A stretch of DNA of 20,418 bases from a virus: IMG/VR virus record IMGVR_UViG_3300046012_000106, positions 1 to 20,418 of that record, one strand, 5' to 3'. Positions within the stretch are counted from its first letter, which is position 1, and each line of letters starts with the position of its first letter. Positions 15,399 through 20,418 of this stretch are shown here, in pieces. The notes under the pieces were generated by a model, which was given only the letters and a program-made list of their open reading frames with translations, did not search any database and was not told the origin of the DNA. Made by a program: the position numbers and the translations under genes.

Positions 15399-15742
15399 CC
15401 GCGCTCGGCATCCACAACTTGACCGCCGTCGTCCTCACCCTGATCGTCGGGTACCTGATCCCGTTTCTGACGTCGCTGATCGCGAAGCAGCACTGGTCTG
15501 GGGCGACGATGGGCCTCGTCACGACGGTCCTGGCCGCGGTCGCTGGGTTCTTCGGTGAGTGGGCCAGCAGCCCTGATCTGAGCCATTACGACTGGCGCTC
15601 GAACGCGCTCCTCGCAGTCGCCGCGCTTGCTGTCGCCCTCGCGAGCCGCGCGCTGGTCCTGCGTGGGACTCCGTTGGACGCGAAGCTCCTCGCGATCGGT
15701 TCACGCGCGCCCGCGCCGGCGCCTGAGCATGAGGCCGCCTGA
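15395..15742 (+). CDS. holin candidate with three membrane spans
   Basis: The 115-residue product has three hydrophobic segments at about 9-29, 36-55 and 68-88, short polar loops and a tail rich in Ala and Pro (APAPAPEHEAA). This is the class I holin layout. It lies between the endolysin and the peptidase, coupled by ATGA and TGATG. A holin would open the cytoplasmic membrane at a set time so the signal-less endolysin reaches the wall. The assignment rests on topology and context. The second small membrane gene cluster upstream may supply a partner or an antiholin. Confidence 0.75.
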   Translation: MTALGIHNLTAVVLTLIVGYLIPFLTSLIAKQHWSGATMGLVTTVLAAVAGFFGEWASSPDLSHYDWRSNALLAVAALAVALASRALVLRGTPLDAKLLAIGSRAPAPAPEHEAA

Positions 15743-16659
15743 TGGTCGAGCTCGCCCCGTACACCGTTCACCGGCGCCATATCCCTGAGGCTGTCGTCTC
15801 GGGTAAGCCCCTCGGTCGCCACGTCCACCATGACTCGCGGTCTCTGGGCTATCAGGTCGTGCCCGATGGGACGGTCAAGACGGTCCGTTGGAATCGGACC
15901 ATTCCCGTGCTCGATCAGGGCGACGTCGGGTCGTGCACCGGCAATGCCGCCGTGGGCCACCTCGGGACCAGCCCGGACGAGGACGCCTTGGCGAGCCTGG
16001 TCGCGACGGGTGCGCTGAAGCTCGACGAACCCGAGGCGCTCAAGCTGTATTCGGCGGCTGAGACGATCGACGGCGACGGCCCGTACCCGCCGAACGACAA
16101 CGGCTCGAGCGGGTTGTCGGTGGCGAAGGCTGCGAAGACCGCGGGCCTGATCAGCGGCTACACCCACGCCACGTCGCTGGCCGCGGCGCAGACCGCGATC
16201 CAGCTCGGCCCGTTCATCGTGGGCTCCGACTGGCACACGTCGATGGACTCACCCGACGCGGCCGGTGTCGTGACCGTGTCCGGGTCTGTGCGTGGCGGGC
16301 ATGAGTACGAGTGCATCGGCTACGACGCCCAAACGGACCTCTGGGAGTTCGTGAACTCATGGGGCACCGGGTTCGGCAAGGCTGGTCACTTCTTCTACTC
16401 GTCGGCGTCGTTCACGAAGCTTCTCGCCGCTGATGGTGACGTGACGCAGTTCGTGCCCTTGTCGCAGCCCGCACCAACCCCGACACCGGCCCCGGTACCC
16501 AACCCCCCAACACCGCCGGGGCCGGCCATACCTGTAGCTGTGCAGACGTTCCTCAGTAGCGTCCCGGCCGGGTGGGAGAACGAGGCGCACACCCTCGGCA
16601 ACAAGACCGTCGCCCACGCCGTCCAGGCGTTGCGGACCACCTACGGCCTACAAAAATAA
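15742..16659 (+). CDS. papain-like (C1-type) cysteine peptidase with Pro-rich linker
   Basis: Residues 50-240 hold the papain signature in order: Q59 and C65 in PVLDQGDVGSCTGNAA, H187 in GGHEYECIGYD and N205 in FVNSWGTGFGKAGHFF. All four catalytic residues are present, so the enzyme is probably active. It lacks a long propeptide and a recognisable signal peptide. A Pro-rich linker (PAPTPTPAPVPNPPTPPGP, 243-261) leads to a 44-residue C-terminal module of unknown type. It follows the holin in a TGATG junction. Possible roles are cutting host surface proteins or cross-bridges during lysis or entry, or processing virion proteins. The sequence alone does not choose among these. Confidence 0.85.
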   Translation: MVELAPYTVHRRHIPEAVVSGKPLGRHVHHDSRSLGYQVVPDGTVKTVRWNRTIPVLDQGDVGSCTGNAAVGHLGTSPDEDALASLVATGALKLDEPEALKLYSAAETIDGDGPYPPNDNGSSGLSVAKAAKTAGLISGYTHATSLAAAQTAIQLGPFIVGSDWHTSMDSPDAAGVVTVSGSVRGGHEYECIGYDAQTDLWEFVNSWGTGFGKAGHFFYSSASFTKLLAADGDVTQFVPLSQPAPTPTPAPVPNPPTPPGPAIPVAVQTFLSSVPAGWENEAHTLGNKTVAHAVQALRTTYGLQK

Positions 16660-17480: not shown

Positions 17481-19898
17481 ATGGCGTACGAGCTCCTAGC
17501 GAACCTCGTCTCGACGACGCTGAGCGCTTCGATCTCCTCGACGTCGGCGACGTCGTGCACGGTTGCGTCCGCAACCGGGTTCCCGGTGGCGACGCTCGGC
17601 GTGACCCAGTTCCGAGTCAACATCGACAACGAGCTCATCATCGTAACGAACACCGAGGGCACGAAGTGGACGATCAGCCGCGGCGCTGAGGGGACGACAG
17701 CGGCGACGCATTCCAGCGGCGCCACTGTCACTCAGGTGTGGACGGTTGCGTCGGTGACGACGCCGGCAGCGGCCCGCGACGAGGCGCGGATGGCGACGCT
17801 GGCCGCGTCGGATGGGCGCCGGTCGAGCGGGCTCGCGTTGGCCGCCTACCAGGATGCTCAACCCAACTTTGTCGAGTTGTGGCCGAATCTGAATAACTGG
17901 TCGGTCGGCGGCGCGAACGGCTCTCAAGTCTCGGCTGGCCGCGTCTACGGCGGCAGCGCGCCGGGTGGCTCCACGTCGGGGATGAACTACTCGTTTCCGG
18001 TGCCTACTGGTGGCGTGTTCCGGGCGGTCACCACCGTCGACTTAGGCCCCGCAAACGCCTCCGACTACATGATCTTCGGGGTCTCAACCGACGCGGCTGG
18101 GGCTACTCCCACGTCTGCGGCTGGCGCCGCAACAGGGATCGCGTTCTTGGACGCGGATATCCACTCGTGGGTGGCTGGCACTGACACCGACCTCGGGGCG
18201 ATGCCGGCTGCGTCGCAGACGTGGGGCATCACCATGATCGCGGACGGCACCAACTTGACGTTCACGGTCAGCCGGCAGAGCGGCGTGCAGGGCGAGTTCC
18301 GGTACAAGATCGCGCAGCCGACCGGCATCAACAACATTTACCTATTCGTGTCGGACGCTAATGCGTTGTCGGGTCGCAGTTTCGGCCCGGTCGGGGTGTC
18401 CCGTAACTTGTCGACGATCACCCCACGGGCGGGCATCGAGGGTGTCACTCGCACGGTCCATTGGACGACCGACGCCGTGCCGAACAACTTCAAGATCACC
18501 CTGCCCGCGAATTACGACTCGCGGATCCCGTCGCCGCTCGCGATCTGCTTTCACGGCAACGGCGCCGACGAGAACCTGTACTCGGACAACGGCGACACCA
18601 ACGCGACGGCGATCGGGCTGGGGCTACTCGCGGCCGGCTACATCGTTCTGACGGCGACGCAGAACTCCAACGGGTCCAGCTGGGGCGCGCAGGGCTCCCT
18701 GGACGCCTACTACAACGCCTACATCTACGCCCGCGACCATTACAACATCGGCCCGGTGGTGTTGCACGGGGATTCGATGGGCAACCTCGAAGCAGCCCTC
18801 ACTATCGCGGGCCAACGCATCCCCGGCATCGTCGCCTACATGGGCGGCTCACCCGCGCTGAGCCTGCTCGCCTGCGCTATCACCGGCAGCGCGTTCCTGA
18901 CCACGATCAACACCGCTTACGGCATCACCCAGGGCACCCTGTCCGGTGCGATGGCCTCGACGGGGCTCACGTCGGTTCCGACGACGGCGAGCTTCCCCAC
19001 GATCGGCACGAAGCTGTACCTCGGCATTGATACCGCGAACGCGGAGATCGTGACCACGACCGGCGCATCAACCGGCACGGCGGTCGCGGTCACCGCTACG
19101 GCGTTCACTCATCTGAGCGGCGCGAAAGTCAGCGACTATCCGACGAAGACCGCCGGCCACGACCCGATGCTGCTCTCGGGTGATGCGTTCCTCGGTGTGC
19201 CTATCAAGCTGTACGCCTCGGCCAGCGACACCACCGTCATCAAGGCGAGCAACGCCGACGTATTCGGTGCCCTGCTCGCGCCGTACGCGAAAGAAGCAAC
19301 CGTAGTCGCGGCCTCGGGGACGCACACCGACGCGTCGAACTACCCGGTTTCGACGACCGTCGCGTTCTTCAACAGCTACACGGGCGGCGCGCCGCTCGTC
19401 ACCTTGCCGCCAGTCAACCCCGTGCGCCCCGAGCAGCGGCTCTACCTGCCCGCCGCGTACACCCTCACCTCGAGCACGTCGGCGCAGAAGCTATTCAACG
19501 TGCCGAGCACCGGGGCGTTCAATGTCGACGCCGAGGTCTACGAGTTCGAGTGCGAGTTCGACCTGACCGGCATGTCAGCGACGAGCGGAACCTTCTCGTT
19601 CCTGTTCGGCGGGACCGCGACGATCGGGTCCATCAAGTATTGGGCGTCGGCGCAGAAGTCGGCGGCGGTCGGGACTCTCGCGACATGGCCATCGAAGGTC
19701 GTCACAGTAGGGACCGCGTCCGCGTTGGTCGCCGCGACGACGACGACCACTGGCGCGGCCGTCATCCGGGGCGTCGTCGAGGTAACGGCTCCCGGCACCC
19801 TGATCCCCGAGGTTAAGCTCAGCGTCGCCTCCGCGGCTGTGGTCGGCGCGGGTTCCTGGTTCCGGCTCACTCCCGGCGCTGACCTGATCGCGGCGTGA
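17481..19898 (+). CDS. tail-fibre-type protein with embedded alpha/beta-hydrolase
   Basis: This modular 805-residue protein starts at ATG 17481; a longer in-frame start at 17268 lies inside the previous gene. Residues 33-91 form a small fibre module (FRVNIDNELIIVTNTEG, TISRGAEGTTAATHSSGA). Residues 130-310 are beta rich. Residues 322-632 are an alpha/beta-hydrolase with oxyanion HGNG (358-361), nucleophile S432 in HGDSMGN, D583 in SASDTTV and H615 in SGTHTD. Between the Ser and Asp, residues about 485-550 repeat the N-terminal module pattern, an apparent insertion. Residues 655-800 form a C-terminal beta domain (YEFECEFDLTGMSATSGTF, GTLIPEVKLS, GSWFRLTPG). Host-surface binding and ester cleavage are likely; the substrate is unknown. 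Confidence 0.85.
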   Translation: MAYELLANLVSTTLSASISSTSATSCTVASATGFPVATLGVTQFRVNIDNELIIVTNTEGTKWTISRGAEGTTAATHSSGATVTQVWTVASVTTPAAARDEARMATLAASDGRRSSGLALAAYQDAQPNFVELWPNLNNWSVGGANGSQVSAGRVYGGSAPGGSTSGMNYSFPVPTGGVFRAVTTVDLGPANASDYMIFGVSTDAAGATPTSAAGAATGIAFLDADIHSWVAGTDTDLGAMPAASQTWGITMIADGTNLTFTVSRQSGVQGEFRYKIAQPTGINNIYLFVSDANALSGRSFGPVGVSRNLSTITPRAGIEGVTRTVHWTTDAVPNNFKITLPANYDSRIPSPLAICFHGNGADENLYSDNGDTNATAIGLGLLAAGYIVLTATQNSNGSSWGAQGSLDAYYNAYIYARDHYNIGPVVLHGDSMGNLEAALTIAGQRIPGIVAYMGGSPALSLLACAITGSAFLTTINTAYGITQGTLSGAMASTGLTSVPTTASFPTIGTKLYLGIDTANAEIVTTTGASTGTAVAVTATAFTHLSGAKVSDYPTKTAGHDPMLLSGDAFLGVPIKLYASASDTTVIKASNADVFGALLAPYAKEATVVAASGTHTDASNYPVSTTVAFFNSYTGGAPLVTLPPVNPVRPEQRLYLPAAYTLTSSTSAQKLFNVPSTGAFNVDAEVYEFECEFDLTGMSATSGTFSFLFGGTATIGSIKYWASAQKSAAVGTLATWPSKVVTVGTASALVAATTTTTGAAVIRGVVEVTAPGTLIPEVKLSVASAAVVGAGSWFRLTPGADLIAA
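18933..19130 (+). repeat. second copy of the fibre module inside the hydrolase domain
   Basis: Residues about 485-550 of the fibre protein (FPTIGTKLYLGIDTANAEIV, then HLSGAKV) follow the same pattern as residues 33-91 (FPVATLG, FRVNIDNELIIV, THSSGATV). Removing them joins AYGITQ to SDYPTKTAGHDPML, a natural continuation of a hydrolase chain. The two copies are diverged at the DNA level. Confidence 0.6.
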
Positions 19899-19902
19899 CC
19901 TG

Positions 19903-20418
19903 ATGGCTTTCACCGGCCAACTCGGCGCGGCGCAACCAGGTGCGCTCGAGCTCGGCGCGGTGCCCAGCGGAGGCACCCAAACCGCGACCGTCGCCTTAGC
20001 GGTCGGCGTCAGTCTCGGCGTCGCCGCGCTGCGTGAAGCTGACGCCACCGTCGCGCTGAATGTCGGGGTGGCGCTCGGAGTGACGCCGCTCCGCGAGGCC
20101 GACACCGCTGTGTCTCTGGCCATAGGCGTCGCGATCGGAGTGACTAGCCAGAGGGAAACCGACGCGACGATCGCGCTCAGCGTGGGTGTGGCGCTGGCCG
20201 TGGCCGCCGTCCGCGAAACAGACACTACCGTCGCGCTCAACGTCGGCGCCGCGTTGGGTGTCACGGCACTGAGGGAAGCAGACGCGGCCGTTACCCTCGC
20301 CGTCCTCGTCACCCTGGGCGTGGTCGGCCAGGCCACATATCAGCCGACCGCGCCGCTCATCGTGACCCTTACGCTGGCCATCGCCCCGCAAGCCACCTAC
20401 CAGCCAGCGGTCACACTG
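19903..20418 (+). CDS. repeat protein of 20-residue units (3' end beyond window)
   Basis: An ATG at 19903, five bases after the fibre gene stop, opens a frame that stays open to the window end. After a 23-residue Gly/Ala-rich start, the chain is built from 20-residue units of the form READxTVALxVGxALGVT. Alternating small and hydrophobic residues point to beta strands, perhaps a fibrous or solenoid shaft. From about 20332 the unit changes to ATYQPTAPL, so a second repeat type begins. No close ribosome-binding site is visible; reinitiation after the fibre gene is likely. The domain and function of the missing C-terminus are unknown. A fibre or surface-attachment role is inferred from neighbours. 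Confidence 0.75.
   Translation, partial: MAFTGQLGAAQPGALELGAVPSGGTQTATVALAVGVSLGVAALREADATVALNVGVALGVTPLREADTAVSLAIGVAIGVTSQRETDATIALSVGVALAVAAVRETDTTVALNVGAALGVTALREADAAVTLAVLVTLGVVGQATYQPTAPLIVTLTLAIAPQATYQPAVTL
19972..20418 (+). repeat. tandem 60-bp coding repeats
   Basis: Units begin at 19972, 20032, 20092, 20152, 20212, 20272, 20332 and 20392 with no length variation. The first is degenerate, five are close (RE-A/T-D start), and the last two switch to ATYQP. Synonymous differences between units are plentiful, so the protein pattern is better kept than the DNA, which suggests selection and age rather than a recent expansion or assembly fault. Confidence 0.85.

Follow-up and report, generated by a model that had tools for sequence, protein, structure and literature searches.

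The window analysed here is a stretch of 20,418 nucleotides (a 20.4-kb virus record, 66% GC) and it encodes a tail-fibre protein in which an esterase-type alpha/beta-hydrolase domain is interrupted by about 65 additional residues. Our results strongly support the interpretation that this segment is a genuine in-frame domain insertion in the hydrolase. The anatomy that we favour, an inserted relative of a phage structural module located at the lid of the enzyme, is probable. The fibre ORF (17481-19898, + strand, 805 aa) has its start codon at position 17481 and is organised as follows:

17481..19898, + strand: tail-fibre protein of 805 aa, with N-terminal module, middle domain, alpha/beta-hydrolase carrying the insert, and C-terminal domain
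17511..17750, + strand: N-terminal module, residues 11-90 (TTLSASISS...GFP...NIDNELIIV...SRGAEGTTAATHSSGATV), from profile matches and PHROG tail-fibre families
17838..18425, + strand: middle domain, residues ~120-315, common to L012, L020, L014 and Seahorse gp33
18426..18932, + strand: hydrolase core part one, residues 316-484, with the nucleophile elbow GDSMG, from alignment A11 and the AlphaFold2 model
18774..18776, + strand: catalytic Ser432 (GDSMG = 430-434), invariant in relatives and directly after predicted strand 423-431
18933..19130, + strand: probable inserted module, residues 485-550, from the relatives without the segment, pLDDT below 50 and likeness to the N-terminal module
19131..19400, + strand: hydrolase core part two, residues 551-640, beginning with the conserved SDYxxKTAGHDP, from the alignment and AlphaFold2
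19227..19229, + strand: catalytic Asp583, invariant in relatives and just after predicted strand 575-580
19323..19325, + strand: catalytic His615, invariant in relatives and just after predicted strand 606-611
19401..19895, + strand: C-terminal domain, residues 641-805

The numbering of Ser432, Asp583 and His615 in an earlier note on this DNA is correct for the ORF starting at 17481. The borders of the segment are set by AYGITQ (residues 479-484) and by SDYPTK (from residue 551), giving an insert of approximately 483/485-550; T483-Q484 may be a remnant or a linker, in which case the segment would start at 18927. A tblastn search of the phage collection returned nothing for the C-terminal domain. 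Pfam matches of the fibre to HCV NS4a, Gp23 and ActD were below the cut-off and were dismissed as chance.

The insertion is visible by comparison with related tail esterases. The hydrolase domain is akin to those of Seahorse gp33 (31% identity over the matched parts, E 3e-18) and ArV2 gp24. These and Faja gp32, all actinophage tail esterases, have the same hydrolase domain and catalytic residues as the window fibre, and Seahorse gp33 also shares its middle domain but, unlike the window protein, all three have a lid loop without the module. (Seahorse itself has two adjoining annotated esterase genes, gp33 and gp34, on opposite strands; L001:3269-6177.) PHROG 10356 matches the part of the window fibre from the insert to the catalytic His. 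Among Arthrobacter, Gordonia, Microbacterium and Xanthomonas phage records and IMG/VR viral contigs, the segment is absent from all of the approximately 13 relative lineages inspected and the sequence is continuous across the site. As the predicted core fold is also complete without it, the proposal of a true domain insertion in the earlier note is upheld.

In the closest relatives, four residues (ASDG) stand where the window protein has 68. Seahorse gp33, ArV2 gp24, L012, L014 (on the same contig as L004), L013/L020/L019, L015, L016 and L017/L018 all read TA[YFH]G[IV]-xxDG-SDYAxKTAGxDP with no gap, and Faja, Barco, CheeseTouch, Mendel, Fizzles and LucasX carry other short connectors at the insertion site. 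The insert splits the most conserved motif of the family, a stretch of about 25 residues that holds 15 of the 27 columns invariant among the A11 relatives. Seahorse gp33 and ArV2 gp24 have the signature of this motif, TAxGIxxDGSDYxxKTAGxDP, uninterrupted. In the window protein both halves are present (TAYGI before the insert and SDYxxKTAGHDP after it) but separated by the insert, the xxDG element is altered with loss of its Asp, and Pro replaces the invariant Ala that follows SDY; the invariant His358 is kept. Inserts at this site were not found in any other protein. The reading frame of the segment is open and in frame with the hydrolase, and its GC content resembles that of the surroundings (GC3 0.85 compared with 0.91 and 0.87 in the flanks). 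A recent DNA duplication was rejected because the nucleotide similarity between the insert and the N-terminal module is at chance level, and flanking direct repeats were also rejected, the edges of the insert sharing no repeat of 7 bases or more.

The fold of the hydrolase was predicted with AlphaFold2. Alignments mixing N-terminal modules and the insert were misaligned and only the hydrolase alignment of ten sequences (the window and nine relatives) was therefore folded; a single-sequence prediction gave pLDDT 34. The MAFFT alignment has one flaw, in that the ASDG of the relatives is set on ASTG within the insert. The model has a mean pLDDT of 71 and a pTM of 0.75, with values around 90 over most of residues 414-464. 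The structure prediction suggested in the earlier note thus yielded a confident alpha/beta-hydrolase core but left the insert at low confidence: pLDDT falls below 50 only at model positions 172-236 (protein 485-549, exactly the insert, with block means of 32-46) and in the last five residues. Ser, Asp and His occur in the expected order, with GDSMG following strand 423-431 and both D583 and H615 following strands. The insert lies between helix 470-480 and helix 553-557, flanked by strands 450-456 and 575-580. Numbering the strands by their order, we would assign the site to the beta6-beta7 excursion, which is the usual lid position in alpha/beta hydrolases. The location near the active-site cap envisaged in the earlier note is therefore borne out by topology, the beta6-beta7 site being also the most conserved loop of the family.

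Foldseek matched the model to many solved alpha/beta-hydrolases of the esterase and lipase kinds (lowest E 2.5e-9; 994 PDB matches with E<=0.001), including the Tth MAG lipase (7q4j), Est1E (2wtm) and LJ0536 (3pf8), which have the same fold as the window hydrolase. The best viral match is a Seahorse esterase (TM 0.71, 2.1 A), and Seahorse esterases are also numbers 1 and 4 among the BFVD matches of the model. In the Tth MAG lipase, the lid sits atop the active site as an insertion that separates strand beta6 from the following helix, alphaE (PMC10682391); judging from the matching description, 7q4j appears to be this lipase. It has a compact lid of its own, while most other lids are helical bundles (PMC10682391). 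The window insert differs from the Tth lid in being related to a phage structural module.

The earlier note had also observed that the segment mirrors the module at the N-terminus of the same protein. The insert retains the TLS start, FP, the ID..E core and the H-x-SGA-x-V end, all common to the RGxxGTTAxxH phage module, but RGxxGTTA itself, the hallmark of the N-terminal module and the motif used to collect most modules, is missing and VTATAFTH occupies its place. BLASTP aligns the insert with the N-terminal module at 37% identity over 78 columns (E=0.002 for the single comparison). Two of 20,000 shuffled inserts reached the BLOSUM62 local score of 71, whereas among 9,487 real 71-aa windows cut from phage proteins the highest score was 55; the 510 windows that were comparably rich in S/T/A/G did not reach it either. 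Profile-profile comparison with hhalign, insert against modules, gave P=2.9e-4, improving to P=7.8e-5 over 69 columns with the module sub-type that has an extra EE in its core. When the comparison was moved along the protein (71-aa window, steps of 12), the insert was the sole peak and windows clear of it gave P of 0.07 or worse. Against a profile of 68 other modules the insert outranks 2,000 shuffles, at a marginal 10.2 bits, compared with 71 bits for the N-terminal module. The latter, which is also matched by PHROG tail-fibre families, obtains 83 bits against a profile of 15 phage modules that includes it. Pairwise z-scores alone were rejected as proof, since a control window of the same protein (residues 297-367) reached 5.7, probably due to one local motif.

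A common origin of the segment and the N-terminal module is thus borne out at the sequence level, and the similarity exceeds chance, although the mirroring does not extend to the hallmark. Because RGxxGTTA is missing, we class the insert as a divergent member or relative of the module family (module-like) and not as a standard copy. In contrast to the known modules, it is located inside an enzyme domain. Close relatives of the insert were not found in viral contigs. With the modules of the window or the L017 module alone as query tblastn gave no match, probably due to low-complexity masking, and two scans of genome collections also gave none.

The module family is widespread and insertion-prone among phage structural proteins, with examples in fibres, sheaths, hubs and putative connectors. 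Searching viral contigs with a DNA motif that encodes TV-x-RG-xx-GTTA-xx-H gave at least 120 stretches, of which 80 loci were listed (L025-L104). In 22 of these 80, by regex count, one module is nested within another in proteins which we take to be head-tail connectors; a further nested example occurs in a putative connector at L022:4494-5600. At L021:3074-5234, three closely spaced reading frames each have a module near the N-terminus. The module is also found in cyanophage tail sheath and fibre proteins and in PHROG tail-fibre families; in Synechococcus phage S-SZBM1 it lies within an annotated tail sheath protein (L159:1501-1668). Scans of Pfam and NCBIfam gave no name for it. Among solved structures, its profile matches residues 496-553 of 8rk3 (E=0.002), apparently domain VI of the JBD30 baseplate hub protein gp53, and the minor tail protein 8vjh, with E=2e-7 for the sequence as a whole and weak scores for individual stretches. 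ArV2 relatives L017 and L018 (2528-4255 in each) carry a segment of about 75 residues that begins and ends much like the module (SGTLSAAS...AHASGVQM) within an N-terminal domain that we read as LamG-like. It is absent from ArV2 and L016, making it a clear insertion; that it is a module is weakly suggested by its sequence, with 10.5 bits and a score above all 2,000 shuffles with one profile but not with the other.

An esterase-type alpha/beta-hydrolase domain has gained the module relative in frame, in the loop that joins two short helices within the beta6-beta7 excursion, and has retained its catalytic Ser, Asp and His as well as its predicted core. We suggest that the module would fold as a small beta domain with its ends close together, so that the hydrolase could accommodate it as a loop and keep its own fold. 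Placed at the lid, it would add a contact surface beside the mouth of the active site, most likely steadying the esterase by contact with its cell-surface polymer or with adjacent parts of the tail, or else modulating access to the active site. Contact-making is likelier than catalysis because the module serves in structural proteins elsewhere. Nevertheless, we advance this contact or gating role tentatively, at slightly less than an even chance, and the effect on enzyme positioning or specificity put forward in the earlier note is likewise hypothetical. A wider view would treat the module as a mobile unit of phages at the protein level, landing repeatedly in loops of unrelated globular domains (the hydrolase lid, the LamG-like domain, its own copies in connectors) and serving in enzymes as an exchangeable lid that re-aims specificity; this view is speculative and distinctly unlikely.

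Several other explanations must be weighed. The segment could be an unrelated low-complexity Ser/Thr/Ala linker that resembles the module by chance. Its composition (61% S/T/A/G), the missing hallmark, the marginal profile score, the low pLDDT and the high z-score of the control window would all fit, but none of the 510 real windows similarly rich in these residues scores as high, the match is collinear over the full length, and the profile-profile scan peaks nowhere else. We therefore regard a linker as highly improbable. The insert might have arisen when the N-terminal module of this protein was duplicated, instead of being acquired from elsewhere. Such an origin is compatible with the favoured anatomy and is suggested by the pairwise scores, in which that module ranks best of 82 (z 6.4), although a relative from L021 is close behind (z 6.2). 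The chance-level nucleotide similarity and the loss of the hallmark mean that any such duplication must be old, and we think this origin unlikely.

The insert could also be a passenger, a mobile module accommodated in a tolerant surface loop with no specific catalytic or binding role. This is somewhat unlikely. It would agree with the presence of the family in many unrelated phage structural proteins and with the failure to find a second example at this site, and the catalytic residues would be intact either way; however, the site is a lid position within the family's best-conserved stretch, the last place in which a neutral insertion would be expected. Conversely, since a conserved motif is split and its invariant Asp (of ASDG) lost, the insertion might alter or abolish activity. 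In the extreme case, the split ASDGSDY motif would disable or lock the enzyme and leave a binding-only fibre, and the exchange of Ala for Pro after SDY points the same way. Retention of Ser432, Asp583, His615, His358 and SDYxxKTAGHDP, with no frameshift or other sign of decay, makes this very unlikely.

Phage tail proteins are usually viewed as being reshuffled end to end. In the window fibre, a relative of a structural module instead lies inside an enzyme domain, at its lid. Insertions in loops of tail-tip domains are known from lambda gpJ, where they are Ig-like/FNIII and beta-sandwich domains (PMC10721106). Both cases concern small domains inserted in loops, the beta fold being a presumed one for the window insert; the gpJ inserts belong to the FNIII family or are beta-sandwiches in a non-enzyme host domain, whereas the host here is a predicted hydrolase. 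Within the part of the literature covered, no precedent was found for a fibre hydrolase with a phage structural module at its lid. The insertion is a fresh variant of the already known domain mosaicism of phages. One phage family may in this way supply natural enzymes with and without the module for testing such inserts. The module itself, very common in phages, unnamed and tolerant of nesting, merits naming, a profile of its own and a survey guided by structure.

Two neighbouring genes can also be mentioned. The gene 3' of the fibre (19903-20418), which exits the contig, encodes repeats of about 20 residues with alternating hydrophobic residues (LREADATVALNVGVALGVT...); TRF detected no DNA array in this region. 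In the tail/lysis region, 15742-16659 encodes a papain-family protein (Peptidase_C1, E=1.5e-6, above the Pfam cut-off), which seems unusual in a phage.
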